Assembly (NCBI RefSeq): GCF_900182705.1
Contig: NZ_FXTP01000009.1
Coordinates: forward strand, 124,001 to 188,000
Length of the DNA: 64,000 nucleotides
Direction of reading: 5' to 3'
Source of the DNA: Gracilimonas mengyeensis
Lineage (GTDB): Bacteria; Bacteroidota; Rhodothermia; Balneolales; Balneolaceae
A program made the position numbers and the translations under genes. Below, piece after piece: positions 16,988 to 24,636 of the stretch. Each line of letters begins with the position of its first letter. Within the stretch, counting starts at the first letter, position 1. The notes under the pieces were generated by a model. The model was not told the DNA's origin and ran no database searches. It was given only the letters and a program-made list of their open reading frames with translations.

Positions 16988-17881
16988 ATGGGTATTAGAA
17001 ACAGAATAGGTGTTGGGGTTTTAATTGGAATGATAATGGTACTGTTTGCTGGATTTACAGCTTGTCAAAAAGGAGATCAGCAAAAGGAGGATAGCACAGT
17101 ACGTTTGGTGTATGCCAATTGGTCGGAAGGGGTGGCCATGACTAACCTGGCTTCAGTTATTTTGGATGAAAAGATGGGCTATAATGTGGTTACCAAAATG
17201 ACCGATATTGAACAGGTTTTTGAGTTACTAAATACCAGCGAATACGATGTTTTTGTGGATGCATGGCTGCCGGAAACCCATGGAAATTACATGCAACAAT
17301 ATGGCAGTTCACTGGAAGATTTAAGCGTAGTGATTGAAGAAGTTAGAACCGGACTGGTAGTGCCTGCCTATATGGATGTAGAAAGCATAAGTGACTTGAA
17401 TGGTCAGGTGGATGTAATCAAAGGCATTGGCAGCGGTGCCGGTGTTATGCAAGCCACTCACGACGCCCTGCAAAGTTATGAGCTCTCCCTCACCTTAGAA
17501 GATGGCTCGGAAGAAGCGATGACTGAGGCACTGGATGATGCTATCAAACGCAGAGCCCCCATCGTGATTACTGGCTGGATTCCTCATTGGTTGTTCAATC
17601 GGTATGATCTCAAATTTCTGGAAGACCCTAAAAATGTATACGGGGCTTCTGAAAAAATACATACCATAGCCCGCTCAGGTTTTACTTCTGATCATCCCCA
17701 GGTTTCCTTGTTCTTTGAGCGGTTTAAGCTTACAGAAACCCAATTGGAGACCCTGATGGACGAAATGGAGTCTATGTCTGGAAATGAAAAACAGGCTGTT
17801 AAAAATTGGATGGATGATCACGAACGTCTTGTAAATAAGTGGGTGCGAGGTCTGCAGCCCCAACGCATTACTGTGATGTAA
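16988..17881 (+). CDS. Glycine betaine-type ABC transporter substrate-binding lipoprotein, orphan
   Basis: The 297-residue protein has a lipoprotein signal peptide (Cys26 in FTAC) and a periplasmic binding domain of the OpuAC/ProX family. Typical segments are YANWSEGVAMTNLAS, EYDVFVDAWLPETHG and PIVITGWIPHWLF, whose aromatic residues usually cage quaternary amines such as betaine or choline. No permease or ATPase gene is adjacent, so its transporter must be elsewhere. It ends 14 bp before the convergent CBS gene. The exact ligand is not shown. Confidence 0.88.
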   Translation: MGIRNRIGVGVLIGMIMVLFAGFTACQKGDQQKEDSTVRLVYANWSEGVAMTNLASVILDEKMGYNVVTKMTDIEQVFELLNTSEYDVFVDAWLPETHGNYMQQYGSSLEDLSVVIEEVRTGLVVPAYMDVESISDLNGQVDVIKGIGSGAGVMQATHDALQSYELSLTLEDGSEEAMTEALDDAIKRRAPIVITGWIPHWLFNRYDLKFLEDPKNVYGASEKIHTIARSGFTSDHPQVSLFFERFKLTETQLETLMDEMESMSGNEKQAVKNWMDDHERLVNKWVRGLQPQRITVM

Positions 17882-17895
17882 AGTGATTACTCAAT

Positions 17896-18333
17896 CTAAG
17901 CAGGATATCCTCCGCCAATGTAATCTCGGAGGGTGTCGATCTCACTTTTTTGACGGGCGATGATAGTTTTAACTACATCACCAATTGAAATAACGCCCAC
18001 AACTTTTCCCTGGTTTACCACAGGCAAGTGACGGATTTTTTTCTCGGTCATCAGCTGCATGCAGAGGTTCAGGGTGTCAGTAGGCTCAACGCGAATCACT
18101 TCATCCGTCATGATTTCATGAACCTCGGTTTCTTTAGAAGTCCGTCCTTTCAGAATTACTTTATTGCGGTAATCTCTCTCAGATACAATGCCCAACAAAT
18201 TTCCGTGTTCCATCACCAGCAATGCACCGATGTTTAATTCGGCCATCTTAGAAATGGCAATAAAAACAGTTTCGTTAGGCGCCACAGAATAGACATCGCT
18301 GCCTTTTTGGTTTAAAAGCTCTTTCACTTGCAT
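17896..18333 (-). CDS. Tandem CBS-domain protein
   Basis: The 145-residue cytoplasmic protein is made of two CBS domains (about residues 8-60 and 70-130) with the repeated pattern LLVMEHGNLLGIVSERDY / HLPVVNQGKVVGVISIGD. Paired CBS domains bind adenine nucleotides and act as energy sensors or regulators. With no attached catalytic domain, it probably regulates a partner protein. It lies 95 bp downstream of a Crp/Fnr regulator on the same strand. Confidence 0.92.
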   Translation of the reverse strand: MQVKELLNQKGSDVYSVAPNETVFIAISKMAELNIGALLVMEHGNLLGIVSERDYRNKVILKGRTSKETEVHEIMTDEVIRVEPTDTLNLCMQLMTEKKIRHLPVVNQGKVVGVISIGDVVKTIIARQKSEIDTLRDYIGGGYPA

Positions 18334-18427
18334 ATTTTCCCCTGTTTGCTTTTAGTTGGTTCCTATTAATAAAAGCATTTTTTTGGAATTTGCAAGAATC
18401 TGGGTGTAAATAATGCCTCAGAGAGCA

Positions 18428-19024
18428 CTAAAGCAGGGTGATTCGGTTTCGACCCAGCTGAACTATTTCTTCACTTTCCAATTGTTTAAGCAAACGGGAG
18501 ACGACTTCCCGGGCGGTACCAAGTTCCTGTCCAAGCTGGCTGTGGGTGATATTAATTTGGTTTGATCCGGATACTTCAGCCTTTTTTCTTAGAAACTGCA
18601 ACAGACGTTCATCCATTTTTTTAAACGCAATAGCATTGACTACGCCCAGTAATTCTTCAAACCGTTTGTGGTAAATGCGGAATACATAATTCAGCCATTC
18701 AGGATCATTCCCCATTAATTCACGAATCTTATTGATGGGGACAAAGACTACTTCAGTCTCTTCTTCAGCAATGGCTTTTACTTTGCTGGTGTCATTATAG
18801 AGCGCAGCAAGAAAAGACATCACACAGGTTTCTCCCGGCTGCAGATAATACATTACCATCTCGCGGTAATCATCATCTGATTGCATCACTTTAAGGCTGC
18901 CTCTTATCACAAAAGGAATAGACTGAACCGGGGCGTCTTCATTTACAATCACATCACCGGTTTCAAAAATTTTGATGATGCCGTTTTTCTTAAGTACTTC
19001 CGTTGAGGGAATGTTGGGCTTCAT
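18428..19024 (-). CDS. Crp/Fnr-family transcription regulator
   Basis: The protein (198 residues from the ATG at 19024; a TTG two codons upstream is less likely) has an N-terminal cyclic-nucleotide-binding-type beta-roll (residues ~15-120). The C-terminal winged helix contains ITHSQLGQELGTAREVVSRLLKQLE, a typical recognition helix. A cytochrome- or FNR-type cysteine cluster is absent, so the effector is unknown. It lies 36 bp after the OprC-like receptor in the same direction, so it may belong to that operon and control metal or redox genes. Confidence 0.9.
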   Translation of the reverse strand: MKPNIPSTEVLKKNGIIKIFETGDVIVNEDAPVQSIPFVIRGSLKVMQSDDDYREMVMYYLQPGETCVMSFLAALYNDTSKVKAIAEEETEVVFVPINKIRELMGNDPEWLNYVFRIYHKRFEELLGVVNAIAFKKMDERLLQFLRKKAEVSGSNQINITHSQLGQELGTAREVVSRLLKQLESEEIVQLGRNRITLL

Positions 19025-19060
19025 AAGCAAGCTAAGTATGGAGTATTTTTCCCCAAGATA

Positions 19061-21277
19061 TTAAAAATTATACCGTAAGGAGAGCATAAGATTACGTCCG
19101 GCCTCGGGGATATTTCCTATACTGGTATGCGTATGATAGTAATGGTCAAGCAGGTTGTTGACTTCCAAGATGGAAGACAGGGAACTGCCCATCCATTTAC
19201 GTTCAAAGGACAGGTTTATGACAGCAAAAGCCTCAGTTTGATCTTCAATGGAGGTTGTTTCAGCTACCCGATTTTGAGCAGCGGCCCATTCCACTTCGCC
19301 CATGAGCATATTTTTTCCATGATGAAGATGGATCAAGCTGTTTCCTTTGAGCGGAGGGATGAGCGGCAGTGGTTCATTCAGACTTTGGTTTTGAGCATAC
19401 AGGTAAGAAATTCGATTTTCCAGGCTAATCACATGGTTGATGTTATTCAGGCTACGGAATTCGCCGCCCATGATCACCGCATCACCAACATTGGCATATT
19501 GCTTGAATTTGAAGTCGTTGCTGCTCACATCCTCAGCCAAAATGCCGTCTATATAAGTGAAGTATTGTTTGTGAAACAGGGAAATAGAAAAGGAATTCCG
19601 GTCGGTCTCCCAAGTCACATTCACATCGGTATTGAACGTGCGCTCCGTTTTTAGCCAGGGATTGCCATCATAAAAGAAACCATCGGTGTAGTTATAGATG
19701 TAATGACCGAAAAGCTCCATATGGTTACCCATGCGTTCGGAGTACACCAAGTTTCCGGTAAGGCTCCAACGGTCATTTAGCATCCATAAAGCACTACCCG
19801 ATGCAGATAGCAAGATCTTTTGCCGGGTATCCAATTCCCGGTCGTATAATCCTTCAAAGAACGAAGCAAAACTCTCATTTCCGGTATCAAGGCTTTTGTA
19901 CCGGATATTTTCTTCCAGTTTAAGTAAGATTTTATCTGATGCCCTGAACTGATGTTTTAATCCCAGGCCCACATTCCGGGTTTGCACATCTCTGAGGTTG
20001 TAGATGAACATGTCTTCAATCTCGGGATCCAGGCTATTCATTTCCATATCGCCGTAAGCATGGGAAGCATAACCATCCAGAAACCAGTTAAAGGAATGTC
20101 CCAATAATGCTGCTTTTCCATTCATGCGGGTTCCGTAGGTGACGGTTTCCCCATACATGGGCATATACATCCCTCTCATTACCGCACGGTTGGCAACATC
20201 ACGGTCGTAATCGTCCATCCAGTGGCGGATGGTGTTGGCATAAAGCTGCACCTTATCCAGTTGAAAATTGGCATCTGAAGAAGCAAAGTTAAATTGTACT
20301 TGACCGATATCAGCCAGGGCTTTGGTTGCATCCATGAGGAGGGCGGGGTAGCCTACATCATAGGCTTTGTCGGTAATATAATTTCCCTCAATGGAATGCC
20401 CGGACCTAAAGGTATGCTTGTAGCTTGCATTCAGGTTTAGCTTCTCATATTGCGTGTTGTTGATGGTTCGGTCGTTTCCAGCGGTAAAATCATTGGCTTT
20501 TTTATAGCTACCGGAAAACCGAACCGCATTACGCCCGGAAGGATCAGAGATATTGGTAGTAAGGTTTAAATGCCGGTAATTATCGGGCACTCTGTAGGCT
20601 GATTGAATCTGCAGGCTGAAGGGATGGTGTTCAGCGCGTTGCGTCACCAGATCCAGCGTACTGTTTCCGCTGCCGTTTTCAGCTACGCCTGATCCGCTTT
20701 TATCAATATGCAGCTTGGAGAGGTTGCTGGTTTCCACATAAGAGGTGATGGGGTCCATCTTATCCACGCAGGCTTTAAACACCTGCATGCCATCAATGGT
20801 CAGGTTCATCCGTTGGTCAGCCTGTCCACGAATCACCGGTTCCCAGGCAAATGCGCCACGCTTGTTGGTGGATAAGCCGTCTATATTATCCAGAAACTGA
20901 TCCATGTTTTGTGTATTTGCCCGCTGATGATAGGCATGTACATTGTTTTGATCTTCTCCGGTGGCAACCACAAGCAATTCAGTATCATCCCGAAAAACCT
21001 GTGGCTTTAGATAAATGGATTTCAGCCCCGGGTGCAAGTGTACTTCTTTGGATGCATAGCCAACAGCCGAAACAACAATATGCGGGTACTTTTTAGGATT
21101 AATGGAAAAAAAGCCATTCACATCAGAAACCGTAATCACCGTGCCGGTATCATCTTTAATGTGAGCCTGAATGACAGGTTGCTGATTATTGCGGTCCAGC
21201 AGTTGGATGCTCAAATCCTGGGCCAGGGCGGGTTCAACCCAAAAAAGGGTTAGAATAAAAAAGGTTAGATATCTCAT
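19061..21277 (-). CDS. OprC/NosA-like TonB-dependent receptor, probable copper importer
   Basis: The 738-residue outer-membrane protein has a signal peptide (through ALAQ), a carboxypeptidase-like domain (~21-95), a plug (~105-215) and a barrel ending LSLRYNF. The plug carries Cys170-x3-Met174 in KACVDKMDPITSY and the barrel carries His352-Trp-Met354. From memory, Pseudomonas OprC binds Cu(I) with a CxxxM and an HxM motif about 180 residues apart; here the spacing is 182. The barrel also has a Met-rich stretch (MRGMYMPMYGE). Two upstream genes encode His/Cys-rich and Met-rich exported proteins. Copper uptake is therefore a strong inference but is not proven. Confidence 0.88.
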   Translation of the reverse strand: MRYLTFFILTLFWVEPALAQDLSIQLLDRNNQQPVIQAHIKDDTGTVITVSDVNGFFSINPKKYPHIVVSAVGYASKEVHLHPGLKSIYLKPQVFRDDTELLVVATGEDQNNVHAYHQRANTQNMDQFLDNIDGLSTNKRGAFAWEPVIRGQADQRMNLTIDGMQVFKACVDKMDPITSYVETSNLSKLHIDKSGSGVAENGSGNSTLDLVTQRAEHHPFSLQIQSAYRVPDNYRHLNLTTNISDPSGRNAVRFSGSYKKANDFTAGNDRTINNTQYEKLNLNASYKHTFRSGHSIEGNYITDKAYDVGYPALLMDATKALADIGQVQFNFASSDANFQLDKVQLYANTIRHWMDDYDRDVANRAVMRGMYMPMYGETVTYGTRMNGKAALLGHSFNWFLDGYASHAYGDMEMNSLDPEIEDMFIYNLRDVQTRNVGLGLKHQFRASDKILLKLEENIRYKSLDTGNESFASFFEGLYDRELDTRQKILLSASGSALWMLNDRWSLTGNLVYSERMGNHMELFGHYIYNYTDGFFYDGNPWLKTERTFNTDVNVTWETDRNSFSISLFHKQYFTYIDGILAEDVSSNDFKFKQYANVGDAVIMGGEFRSLNNINHVISLENRISYLYAQNQSLNEPLPLIPPLKGNSLIHLHHGKNMLMGEVEWAAAQNRVAETTSIEDQTEAFAVINLSFERKWMGSSLSSILEVNNLLDHYYHTHTSIGNIPEAGRNLMLSLRYNF

Positions 21278-21345
21278 GTCCGTAAAATTTTGAGTATATG
21301 GCCGGACTATAGGTGCCCGGCCAAATACAACTCTCTTATTAGGGA

Positions 21346-22152
21346 TTACTGCGCTTGCACGCTGTATTCAAACACCACTTCAGGCAGGGTGTCGTTAGCT
21401 GCCACAAGTACTACCGAAGTAGTCCATGTGCCGCTCATGCTATAGTTGATATCGCCTTCGTAAAAGCCATCACCAGTCGCAACGGGGTTCGTAAAGTCGG
21501 TGGAGTGTCCGCTTCCGCCGCCCATATCCATGTACGGATATACATCCAGGACGAGATCCTCCACCGCAGGAAAGTTCATCATGGATTCGCGGGTGTGGAT
21601 CAGAAAAGTGAGATCATTTTGTCCCGTTACCGGCTTTTGAGGTGCATACCAGGTAATGAAATACACCTTATCGTTATCATCGCGCACGCTGGTGAGTTTC
21701 CAGGAGGAAGCGACTTCAACAGGTATTTCTCCGGAAATCATCTCATCGGTAGGTGTCGTGATTTCAAAGTTAATAGTCCAGCTGCCCATACTACCACTTG
21801 GCATGATAAAAACGGCCATGTTTTTGAAATATCGATCGTCTTCTTCTGCGGTTTTGGGTTGATTGTAGGGAGCGGAATGCATCATATCACCCATATCCAT
21901 CATGGGTTGGATGGAGATAGATTGGGGAGTGATGATGTTGCCGTTTTGTTCTAATTTCCAATAGAGGGTATTGGCACCGGTTTCAGGCTCTTTTTCTGCT
22001 TCGAGAGAAATAGTGTAACCATCAACGGTTACCTGATTAACGGGTATGAGTTCTAATTCCGGTTTATTGTTATCGGTGGTGTCACAGGAGGTGGCAGCTA
22101 TAGCCAAAATGGCAAGCAAAGCGGCATAGCCCCATAGTTTTAGCATGTTCAT
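21346..22152 (-). CDS. Met-rich lipoprotein, YtkA-like, in the putative copper operon
   Basis: From the ATG at 22152 the product is 268 residues with a lipobox ATSC (Cys23). Two beta-rich halves each resemble YtkA-like domains. Short clusters such as PMMDMGDMMHSAP and YPYMDMGGGSGHS are rich in Met and His, as expected for binding of copper or another soft metal in the periplasm. It lies 68 bp upstream of the OprC-like receptor on the same strand, which suggests it takes metal from, or hands it to, the receptor. The longer frame to 22206 is rejected because the signal peptide starts at the chosen ATG. Confidence 0.75.
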   Translation of the reverse strand: MNMLKLWGYAALLAILAIAATSCDTTDNNKPELELIPVNQVTVDGYTISLEAEKEPETGANTLYWKLEQNGNIITPQSISIQPMMDMGDMMHSAPYNQPKTAEEDDRYFKNMAVFIMPSGSMGSWTINFEITTPTDEMISGEIPVEVASSWKLTSVRDDNDKVYFITWYAPQKPVTGQNDLTFLIHTRESMMNFPAVEDLVLDVYPYMDMGGGSGHSTDFTNPVATGDGFYEGDINYSMSGTWTTSVVLVAANDTLPEVVFEYSVQAQ

Positions 22153-22240
22153 GATAAAATGGTTCTTAGTTAGTTTTGTATAAAAAGGGTGATTTCCGGA
22201 TATCAAACCGGAGATCTGTTAGTAAGAAGGGAGTACAAAA

Positions 22241-22723
22241 CTAACCGCGGGGCGGGCGCAGCAAATCAGCGGCAAAACCGTCAAGTATTGCATAACTAAG
22301 ATGAGAAGGGGATTCAATATCCCGGGGAGTAGTTATAAATCTAAAGTCTTGTTTGCAGGTGGCATCAAACTTGGCATAGATCAACCCCATGTCGTTGCTG
22401 TTACTTGAATTGGGGGGATGAGGAGCTGAGTAAAAGCAGTAGTCGTGTTCAACGGTTTTATCATCCAAATGATCACTGCCATGAGTTTTAGCTACAGAAT
22501 CAGAAGTATTTTGTGGTTGCAGTTCAGGATGGTGGCAAGTACATATTTTACGGCCGTCTTCTATTTCACAATAGCAAAATGATACAGCACAATGATCTTC
22601 CTTGTCATGGGCGTGGAAGGCTTTTATTACAAGCCCTGTGCCCAACCAACCGAAGATATTCCATAGCATTGTAACAAGTACAATACTGCTGATTAATTGG
22701 TGATATGTACTTTTAAGACTCAC
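22241..22723 (-). CDS. His/Cys-rich exported or membrane-anchored protein in the putative copper operon
   Basis: The 160-residue protein begins with a hydrophobic segment (residues ~10-34), then a polar part full of metal-ligand residues: FHAHDKEDHC, SFCYCEIEDG, CTCHHPEL, HGSDHLDD and HDYCFYSAPH. It ends in RPPRG. I recognise no named domain. It is the first gene of the leftward group with the Met-rich lipoprotein (88-bp gap) and the OprC-like receptor, so a role in binding or sensing copper or a similar metal is inferred. It could instead be a cation-efflux accessory. Confidence 0.65.
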   Translation of the reverse strand: MSLKSTYHQLISSIVLVTMLWNIFGWLGTGLVIKAFHAHDKEDHCAVSFCYCEIEDGRKICTCHHPELQPQNTSDSVAKTHGSDHLDDKTVEHDYCFYSAPHPPNSSNSNDMGLIYAKFDATCKQDFRFITTPRDIESPSHLSYAILDGFAADLLRPPRG

Positions 22724-22874
22724 AGGTCTTCAAACCTACTAAAACCCTTAAATAAAAGGTAGCTGATTTTTGTTAAATGCCGATAATTTTAGCCTTTTAA
22801 ACAGGTGGCTTCACAAACTATTCACGATAAATGTATAGGCTTCCCATTGGTTAACTAATCAAAATTGGGGTTTA

Positions 22875-23150
22875 ATGAATACCGTTAGAAAACACACGCA
22901 AAATAAAATCATTGACTTAGTATCTTTTATAAGTATGATTCTTTTGATAGGGACCGGAGTTATTATGTATTGGGTATTACCTCCGGGAAGTCATGGCGAA
23001 AACTTTCTTTCACTTTCCCGTCACGATTGGGGAGATATTCACTTCTGGATAGCAGTAGTTTTTACTGTGCTTGTAGCATATCACCTTTTGCTACATTTAC
23101 CGTGGATTAAAGGCAGTTATTTTAGTTTCGGGAATAAGAGCCATAAATAA
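22875..23150 (+). CDS. DUF4405-like two-helix membrane protein
   Basis: The 91-residue protein has two transmembrane helices (about residues 13-35 and 54-76). Conserved His residues appear in RHDWGDIHFW and YHLLLHLPW, the pattern of DUF4405, a family related to di-haem cytochrome b561-like subunits. It may bind haem through these histidines. It is divergent from the putative copper operon, with a 151-bp shared upstream region, and ends in a strong terminator. Its partner is unknown. Confidence 0.75.
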   Translation: MNTVRKHTQNKIIDLVSFISMILLIGTGVIMYWVLPPGSHGENFLSLSRHDWGDIHFWIAVVFTVLVAYHLLLHLPWIKGSYFSFGNKSHK

Positions 23151-23184
23151 AAAAAGGCTCTAACTATCAGTTAGAGCCTTTTTT
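23151..23184. terminator. Bidirectional terminator after the DUF4405 gene
   Basis: GGCTCTAACT (23156-23165), an ATC loop and AGTTAGAGCC (23169-23178) form a 10-bp stem flanked by A- and T-runs. It serves the convergent genes on both sides. Confidence 0.9.
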
Positions 23185-23214
23185 CAGGTGTTTGCTTTTA
23201 GGAAGGAAAAGGGA

Positions 23215-23598
23215 TTATTGAGTTGGTTTCAGAGCAATGGTAATTTCCATCGCAGCTGCCTCTTCTATAGAAACGGCTTCGAAGGAACGTTCATAAGGCT
23301 GATATCCCTCATGATCTACACTTATCGTATAAGTTTCACCTTCGGCGATGTCTTCTACAACGAACTCACCTTCTTTATCAGTAATCACGGGCTCTTCCAG
23401 CCGTTCAAGATTTACAGCAACTTTATTAAGGGGTGTACCGTCGGTACTGTCAACTACGGTACCATTCAGGTCAAGCTCAAGTTGTACAACCTCGTTGGGT
23501 TGATTGTTATCTACAGCTGTCGAGTTGGTCATGGCAACTACCATAAAACCAAATGCTACTAAGAATAATCCAGGAATGATGCTTTTGAGTGTTTTCAT
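23215..23598 (-). CDS. Small exported carboxypeptidase-regulatory-like (Ig-fold) protein
   Basis: From the ATG at 23598 the product is 127 residues with an N-terminal hydrophobic signal or anchor (residues ~4-24). One carboxypeptidase-regulatory-like domain follows (LNGTVVDSTDGTPLNKVAVNLERL ... GEFVVEDIAEGETYTISVDHEGYQPY). This is the module found at the N-terminus of TonB receptors, here on its own. A GAGG Shine-Dalgarno sequence in the leader lies ~9 nt before the chosen ATG, favouring it over the ATG at 23613. The function is unknown; it is perhaps surface or periplasmic binding. Confidence 0.75.
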   Translation of the reverse strand: MKTLKSIIPGLFLVAFGFMVVAMTNSTAVDNNQPNEVVQLELDLNGTVVDSTDGTPLNKVAVNLERLEEPVITDKEGEFVVEDIAEGETYTISVDHEGYQPYERSFEAVSIEEAAAMEITIALKPTQ

Positions 23599-23844
23599 CG
23601 TTGTTAACCTCATTTTGTTAGTTTTATATCTCTCTGTAAGTACTAAGCATTGTGCTTTGTTACAGATGTACACTCAAGCCTCTGGATTTTGTTCTATTTT
23701 CTAACCTTTGTAAACTGTTCGATATTAAATACTTACGTATTAAAAAAATAAATTTTAAACAAAAGTACCTTGGTTTGCCTGAATCAAAGGTTAGAAGCTT
23801 TTCCGGGTATTCAGTTATATAAAATGACGAAGGTTGAGTACGTC

Positions 23845-24636
23845 TTAATCTTTTAAGATCGAAGAATCCAGCACGTCATTATCAAAAAACACAAAGCGGT
23901 TGCTGAGCTTGATTCCCAGGTATACCGAGAGCACCGTGCCCGAGAAGATGGCCAGCATAATCATGATCTGATATTTGATGGCAATGAGAGGCGAGCTGCC
24001 GCTTAAAATTTGTCCCGTCATCATCCCGGGGAGAGAAACCAACCCAATGGTTGCCATGGAGGCAAGGGTGGGGTTAGCTGATTTTTTTAGCGCATCCCTG
24101 AAGAACGGAAAGACGGCTTCGCTACGAGTGGCGCCACAGGTTAGGTAGAACCGGTATCGTTCCTGATGTTCATTCAGACTGTAGTAAAAGGCATTAATGC
24201 CAATTACGTTACTGCGCAGGCAATTTCCCAGTACCATGCCGGTGATGGGAATCGTGTACTGGGCAGCCAGAAAGGTGGGCAGTTGAATGACCAGCTCCAG
24301 GAAGAAGATGTCAATCACAATAATCCCGAAAAAAGTGGCAGCAAAAATAGGGATGAGGAGAGATTTTTTACGTCTGAGCTCACTGCGATCGATGGTGGCA
24401 AAATCAGCAACCAGTACCATAACCATTATCCAGGCAGCGTTTAGCCACGCATTGTCCAGTTCAAACAAGTACTCCAGGTAGTAGCCTACGAAGAGTAGCT
24501 GCAAGGTCATCCGAACGGTGGCTATGCCAAGCTTTTTATTAAGCCCGGTTTTGTAGCGCCATAATATCCAGGCGGGGATGATGAGAATTAAAAACCCGAT
24601 ACTCAATTGCCACCAGCTAAGATCAATAATGTCCAT
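23845..24636 (-). CDS. fetB: FetB-like ABC transporter permease
   Basis: The 263-residue integral membrane protein has about seven helices and the UPF0014/FetB pattern: LGIATVRMTLQLLFVGYYLE, VLGNCLRSNVIGINAFYYSL and LVSLPGMMTGQILSGSSPL. FetAB is described as an iron exporter in E. coli that helps against oxidative stress. The gene follows fetA by 12 bp on the same strand, giving the two-gene operon expected. The substrate here is inferred from the family. Confidence 0.9.
   Translation of the reverse strand: MDIIDLSWWQLSIGFLILIIPAWILWRYKTGLNKKLGIATVRMTLQLLFVGYYLEYLFELDNAWLNAAWIMVMVLVADFATIDRSELRRKKSLLIPIFAATFFGIIVIDIFFLELVIQLPTFLAAQYTIPITGMVLGNCLRSNVIGINAFYYSLNEHQERYRFYLTCGATRSEAVFPFFRDALKKSANPTLASMATIGLVSLPGMMTGQILSGSSPLIAIKYQIMIMLAIFSGTVLSVYLGIKLSNRFVFFDNDVLDSSILKD

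Follow-up and report, generated by a model that had tools for sequence, protein, structure and literature searches.

The locus described here, in the genome of Gracilimonas mengyeensis, raises the question of why the genes for an apparent copper receptor and its lipoprotein should be preceded by a gene for a small protein, rich in Cys and His, that belongs to no named family. The locus lies in a 64,000-nt stretch of DNA (NZ_FXTP01000009.1, positions 124,001–188,000; hereafter the window, whose positions serve as coordinates throughout) and consists of four consecutive open reading frames (ORFs), all on the minus strand, at 22723–22241, 22152–21346, 21277–19061 and 19024–18428. A first-pass annotation had taken the first three for a probable copper-uptake operon with an OprC-like receptor, the two proteins ahead of the receptor having the look of metal donors or acceptors. 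The answer proposed here, to which we assign a probability of roughly three in four, is that this is a copper-starvation uptake operon headed by a cis-acting copper-sensing leader: an OprC-type TonB-dependent receptor would import copper across the outer membrane, a Met-rich lipoprotein of YtkA type would handle copper there, and the product of the first gene would govern expression of both.

Comparison with relatives bears out the three-gene operon. The order leader, lipoprotein, receptor is kept in all 12 distinct operons (the window and 11 relatives; in genome G009 the contig stops within the receptor), and the leader heads each of them. Among the relatives, all genomes whose receptor belongs to the window's subfamily (at least 991 bits) and whose upstream region is assembled have a leader; in G042 the contig ends at the receptor start, and in G008 the leader lies at a contig end and no receptor match was obtained. 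Searches for the leader were positive for 13 of 96 relatives and for 10 of 394 genomes of the phylum, nine of them from the window's family; an eleventh, weak match is interrupted by stop codons and was excluded.

A leader with a constant end

The leader gene (22241–22723, minus strand, GTG start) encodes 160 residues, with an N-terminal hydrophobic stretch (seen by eye) that gives it the look of an exported protein, seven Cys (45, 50, 52, 61, 63, 96 and 123) and 11 His, CxC and CTCHH motifs, and the C-terminal end LLRPPRG. The annotation's statement that it has no named family holds: neither Pfam nor NCBIfam gave a significant match, and none of 12 leader homologues matched Pfam DUF2946 at E values up to 10. 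Alignment of 12 leaders that are 25–39% identical to that of the window (prepared without L009, which is cut at a contig end, and L016, which repeats L012 at the opposite end of its chromosome) leaves W21, N22, G25, C45, C52, C61, C63, C96, P157 and P158 invariant. Length is not constant, six of the 12 aligned homologues being shorter than 150 residues.

Position 156 is Arg in 11 of the leaders and Lys in the twelfth, and all 12 end in [R/K]PP plus two or three residues, the motif being preceded by Leu, Phe, Ile or Asp, among others. The C-terminal half is otherwise hypervariable except for the spacing of this end to Cys96: from this last conserved Cys to the Arg or Lys of the motif there are 57–60 residues in every leader, and the distance from C63 to C96 ranges from 14 to 33, i.e., the middle of the protein varies by up to 19 residues. 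An [RK]PP sequence within the last seven residues was found in 13 of the 309 long ORFs of the fetched stretches; 12 of these are the leaders, and the single case among the 297 others is an antisense-like ORF on a GC-rich contig and is probably spurious. In the window the codon for Arg156 lies at 22259–22261 and those for Pro157 and Pro158, the proposed arrest site, at 22253–22258 (minus strand). Because of the constant RPP end, the fixed Cys-to-RPP distance, the hairpin on the stop codon that is described below, and the position at the head of the operon, the protein is read as regulatory; judged from its sequence, it is most probably a leader of the CutF/CruR kind and not a copper donor.

According to passages of PMC9426467, CruR heads a copper-receptor operon of Bordetella pertussis, its RAPP end and a CXXC motif are required for regulation, and copper relieves the arrest; arrest at RAPP in vitro is described in sections of PMC12992588. 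CruR, a DUF2946 upstream ORF, resembles the window leader in being the first gene of a copper-receptor operon, in its export-type N-terminus and Cys motif, in having Pro-Pro a few residues before the stop, and in its conserved Cys-to-Pro spacing. The window leader differs in having no DUF2946 match, CxC/CTCHH rather than CXXC, and RPP rather than RAPP, and also in geometry, CruR having a spacing of 45 and a 162-nt gap with a Rho site, the window leader a spacing of ~58 and a short gap with a stop-codon hairpin. CutF of Rhodobacter capsulatus and CutF-like proteins share with it export, Cys residues, an end rich in Pro and a stem-loop, intergenic in CutF, by which the start of the next gene is shielded (PMC9973294, in part); however, CutF activates a copper oxidase when copper is high, whereas an uptake system would be expected to respond with the opposite sign. 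Compared feature by feature with the CutF-like class, Pro-Pro falls within the last 15 residues in 12 of 12 leaders, the next gene is on the same strand well within 1,000 nt (gap of 50–103 nt), and a stem-loop over the next start is indicated by prediction and by matching of its arms, but the window leader with its 160 residues exceeds the 150-residue filter given in the part of PMC9973294 that defines the class. The same source counts many Bacteroidota among CutF-like proteins, and its cluster lists may include the leader families discussed here. Arrest leaders of the SecM and ApdA type likewise free a downstream start by means of a C-terminal Pro-containing motif, but they sense protein export, not metal, and the motif is RAGP or RAPP; Pro-ended leaders of sec genes in Bacteroidota are mentioned in passages of PMC10987492. 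The leaders of Balneolaceae escaped the survey of RAPP and RGPP motifs in PMC12992588, which in the sections concerned reports no copper-related leaders from Bacteroidota. Full-text literature searches on the YtkA–receptor–nosZ combination, on TonB receptors accompanied by MbnP/MbnH and on copper arrest leaders of Bacteroidota returned no description of this operon.

A hairpin on the leader stop codon

In all 12 operons the leader and lipoprotein genes lie on the same strand with a gap of 50–103 nt, and in all 12 folds a predicted stem joins the stop region of the leader to a stretch shortly before the ATG of the lipoprotein. In the window the 5' arm (GGTTAGTTTTGTA; 22234–22246, minus strand) includes the leader stop codon TAG (22241–22243), and the 3' arm (TACAAAACTAACT; 22168–22180, minus strand) ends 15 nt 5' of the lipoprotein ATG; the folding energy of the 156-nt region is −36.6 kcal/mol (z −2.65; 3 of 200 shuffles were as good). 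There are variants: the stems of L012 and L013 have a bulge at the second base of the stop codon, and that of L011 extends with its 3' arm as far as the ATG.

The arms vary across loci yet match within each locus. When every 5' arm was paired with every 3' arm (11 loci, L006 being omitted as near-identical to L005), the loci's own pairings summed to −153.5 kcal/mol vs. a mean of −83.6 kcal/mol for random pairings, and none of 100,000 permutations was as good. The locus's own 3' arm ranked best in its row in nine of the 11 loci (second in L004, third in L010), and shuffled arms reached the energy of the own pairing in at most 13 of 500 cases for 3' arms and at most 18 of 500 for 5' arms. The junction between lipoprotein and receptor, subjected as a control to the same test, showed no arm matching, with 2,934 of 20,000 permutations as good (10 operons; L034 and L038 were left out because their start is unclear, L036 is a repeat, L030 was kept out of the permutation, and the start codon of L031 was mis-set). 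The comparison thus shows that the predicted hairpin is anchored on the leader stop. When a ribosome is placed with the second Pro codon in its P site, the start region of the lipoprotein is computed to become more accessible in 11 of 12 loci, the mean free fraction rising from 0.47 to 0.60; with the ribosome parked 30 nt upstream the mean computed accessibility is 0.48.

A mechanism consistent with these features would run as follows. As it is translated, the leader would enter the membrane or periplasm with its C-terminus still inside the ribosome, and the ribosome would stall, or at least slow, at the terminal Arg-Pro-Pro, as suggested by conservation of this end and by the RAPP and poly-Pro precedents. 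The stalled ribosome would cover the 5' arm of the hairpin, for which comparison speaks and whose opening is computed, so that the lipoprotein start region would be free and the operon translated. Copper bound to the Cys/His cluster of the nascent chain would then release the stall, upon which the ribosome would leave, the hairpin would close, and lipoprotein and receptor would be switched off. That the operon should be on at low copper follows the example of CruR and the logic of uptake.

The leader could instead act through Rho-dependent or other transcription termination in the gap rather than through access to the start codon, and Rho-dependent termination is the mode of action of CruR, the nearest parallel that involves a TonB receptor (PMC9426467, in the passages on its mechanism). 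However, the gap of 50–103 nt carries an AU-rich stem that ends near the start codon, as described in part of PMC9973294 for CutF–cutO, vs. the 162-nt, GC-rich gap of CruR; terminator-like matches in the region number 7 vs. 6.0 in shuffled sequences, and no U-run terminator follows the stop-codon hairpin. Termination is regarded as unlikely, although it keeps an appreciable share of the probability. The hairpin also bears on whether the CxC/HH protein is instead a stable protein that is exported and, as copper chaperone or acceptor, passes metal to the receptor or takes it over from there, a role with which its conserved Cys and His residues, its N-terminal hydrophobic stretch and its co-transcription with a copper receptor would agree. 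A stable chaperone seems distinctly improbable, since the C-terminal half is hypervariable apart from the RPP end and the spacing of that end to Cys96, the end of the gene belongs to an RNA hairpin, and in other operons this position is occupied by an unrelated protein whose end is of the same kind (see below). The leader may also play a double role, as both chaperone or acceptor and regulator.

The receptor and its neighbors

The TonB-dependent receptor (738 residues; 19061–21277, minus strand) has C170, M174, H352 and M354 exactly where the first-pass annotation had placed them in proposing a CxxxM motif in the plug and an HxM motif in the barrel with OprC-like spacing. In the phmmer alignment with OprC, ACVDKMD falls on ACPNRMD and RHWMDD on DHIMDN, bringing all four residues into register with the copper ligands of OprC, Cys143 and Met147 in the plug and His323 and Met325 in the barrel (as given in the part of PMC8610252 on the binding site). 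The motifs are not lost in homologues: C170 and M174 are invariant in the 27 sequences that cover the plug, and H352 and M354 in all 28 receptors, flavobacterial ones among them, down to 27% identity (the window is included in both counts; L045, a repeat, and L068, a short match, are not, and L062 lacks the plug). Met-rich positions M367, M370, M372, M374, M411, M413 and M423 are invariant in 12 receptors of Balneolales; five flavobacterial receptors have Glu and Val at positions 367 and 370. OprC provides the top sequence matches in the PDB (E 2.9e-13) and, when the AlphaFold2 model of the receptor (pLDDT 82.1, pTM 0.78) is used as query, all 28 best matches in Foldseek; VIA-align also puts OprC first (Z 37.4), with a modest margin over BtuB (Z 35.4). 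The assignment as an OprC-type copper receptor is well supported by sequence and by the predicted fold.

Strict membership in the OprC/NosA family of Pseudomonas TonB-dependent copper receptors is not supported by the curated cut-off of equivalog profile TIGR01778 (472.45), the receptor scoring 131.8 bits (E 3.4e-38). It shares with that family the CxxxM plug and HxM barrel motifs at aligned positions, the fold, Met-rich positions near the site and, in some relatives of the window operon, a nosZ neighborhood; it differs in its identity to OprC of only ~20%, its score under the cut-off, an extra N-terminal carboxypeptidase-regulatory-like domain (PF13715) and its YtkA lipoprotein partner. If the receptor imported another metal, a copper chelate or haem, the Cys-Met-His-Met set would be a leftover, and the low identity, the TIGR01778 score, the shared fold and close Z scores of other metal and haem receptors, and the import of chelated copper by CrtA (mentioned in PMC12914433, in part) would be in keeping with this; but four ligands that stay invariant at 27% identity, OprC at the head of both the sequence and the structure lists, and neighbors of copper type (YtkA lipoprotein, MbnP and MbnH in Rhodothermales, nosZ nearby) leave this explanation a very slight probability.

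The lipoprotein gene (21346–22152, minus strand) encodes 268 residues from its likeliest ATG (22152). Its product matches YtkA (PF13115) in two stretches with 47.8 bits (cut-off 25.9) and has a lipobox Cys (Cys23), 16 Met residues and, in an alignment of 12, the conserved motifs PMMDM, MMSFP and YPYMDMGGGxGHS; searches of solved structures with the lipoprotein and with the leader gave no usable match. A part in copper handling at the surface or in the periplasm is likely. A copper-handling role is thus plausible for the Met-rich lipoprotein, but for the His/Cys-rich protein, which bears the marks of a regulatory leader, the earlier view of a metal donor or acceptor is the less favored one.

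The fourth ORF (18428–19024, minus strand; ATG at 19024) encodes a Crp/Fnr-type regulator (cNMP_binding, HTH_Crp_2) and does begin 36 bp past the receptor, as annotated. A lasting link to the operon did not emerge, no homologue being found in the fetched stretches of 11 relatives, 10 of which extend at least 3 kb beyond the receptor. Sequence comparison thus places it probably outside the copper system, and despite its strand and close position it is very improbable that it is the operon's own regulator and that the leader has no part.

Divergent to the leader lies a gene for a small DUF4405/cytochrome b561-like membrane protein (22875–23150, plus strand), followed by one for an exported carboxypeptidase-regulatory-like protein (23215–23673, minus strand); between the two, near 23147–23190, is a strong stem followed by a T-run. 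An Rfam scan of 17500–24000 at E up to 1 gave no match in the operon gap and four sub-threshold matches, all at ~23103–23226. A sigma-70 scan gave 12 matches vs. 13.4 in shuffles, i.e., no better than shuffled sequence. TAnnTTTG, the −7 element of Bacteroidota, occurs just 5' of the leader in the window and in only one other of the 12 loci.

A second leader family and the link to nosZ

In Flavobacteria, a YtkA lipoprotein precedes receptors of the same family, and four of five receptor loci also have a protein of 121–134 residues with a CNGKCHL-like motif upstream (the fifth comes without upstream DNA); this leader ends in [H/R/K]PP plus two to four residues. Leaders of CNGKCHL type occur in 125 of 394 genomes of the Bacteroidota phylum. 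The Cys pattern gave a leader in 28 of 34 loci, and all 28 have Pro-Pro within the last eight residues, preceded by His (14), Arg (5), Lys (3), Thr (2), Ile (2), Glu (1) or Leu (1). In other Balneolaceae (G017, G020, G036 and G044) a second-family leader, ending in PPPK or PPPR, heads the operons of second-subfamily receptors. A relationship between the window leader and the flavobacterial one was not borne out, comparison of the two family profiles giving a probability of 1.6%, with the last 20 columns alone aligned. The stop-codon hairpin was likewise rejected as a rule for the second family, being found at p<0.05 in nine of 27 junctions, those of G044 and G017 among them (28 junctions were listed, one without a downstream ORF).

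CNGKCHL-type leaders (L112–L141 and others) are often present several to a genome, ahead of lipoprotein and receptor genes, and some of the lipoproteins downstream look MbnP-like by eye. A further short Cys protein, ending in FQPPELA, is encoded upstream of a flavobacterial operon (L064, 1735–2109). For the Rhodothermales loci, the leader scan, which needs a hydrophobic run and missed the known leaders L044 and L052, is no proof that leaders are absent. In this order MbnP, an MbnH-type di-haem protein, the YtkA lipoprotein and the OprC-like receptor are encoded in a row (L049–L051, L054–L058, L060 and L061; MbnP and MbnH were named by profile in L050 only and by eye in the other loci). MbnP–MbnH copper systems thus resemble the window system in that the Rhodothermales row carries this receptor and lipoprotein, and differ in that MbnP and MbnH were not seen in the window operon; an MbnP search of the window genome gave no match, but control genomes likewise gave none. 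On balance it seems probable, if less firmly so than for the window operon itself, that in Bacteroidota in the broad sense OprC-like and MbnP-type copper uptake is controlled by copper-sensing nascent leaders of two or more unrelated families, whose ends read [R/K/H]PP or PPP[K/R], and that the family of Balneolaceae works together with a hairpin anchored at the leader's stop codon, a single ribosome position both reading copper and switching translation.

NosA has been proposed to serve the nitrous oxide reductase NosZ (PMC8610252, in part). Among the relatives, NosZ (PF18764) is found in 25 of 29 genomes with the receptor vs. 27 of 67 others (p 3.8e-5, for related genomes that are not independent). 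A receptor or leader lies within ~10.3 kb of nosZ in seven of the 25 genomes having both (G001, G002, G026, G033, G057, G069 and G074), a proximity with a chance of ~2.5e-10 under a simple model; in G001 the copper operon and nos cluster stand end to end, ~100 bp apart, and in G026 a NosZ-containing cluster starts ~650 bp upstream of the operon in the opposite direction. In L102 (3190–13315) and L104 (5246–15933) the copper operon adjoins a clade II nosZ cluster, convergently in one genome and divergently in the other. NosZ is not the sole client, because four receptor genomes, three of them nearly complete, have no NosZ match; nitrous oxide reductase is probably one of the recipients of the copper in many relatives.

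Several of these results weigh against a copper-uptake operon under an arrest leader. The end of the leader is RPP-x and not RAPP or RGPP, the motifs with proven arrest, and the poly-Pro end of CutF gave no stall in a LepB fusion test (as reported in part of PMC9973294). In L011 a ribosome modelled on RPP does not free the lipoprotein start, and the stop-codon hairpin does not extend to the second leader family as a whole (9 of 27 junctions at p<0.05). The receptor falls below the TIGR01778 cut-off. With respect to nosZ, the association is not significant when the leader-bearing operon is taken by itself (9 of 13 vs. 43 of 83 genomes, p 0.37), and in the window genome nosZ and the operon lie on different contigs (C14 and C9, respectively).

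What is ordinary in the system is the pairing of an OprC-like copper receptor and a lipoprotein of copper type; what is new is a leader with all the marks of a copper-sensing arrest peptide, together with a hairpin on its stop codon. Outside Pseudomonadota, little is known of copper uptake or of how it is controlled. If the proposed reading is correct, the operon would add a second, testable example of an uptake receptor under translational control by copper, with a proline motif other than RAPP and with hairpin arms that can be freely swapped, and it would link a receptor of OprC type to Bacteroidota that reduce N2O with a copper-requiring NosZ.

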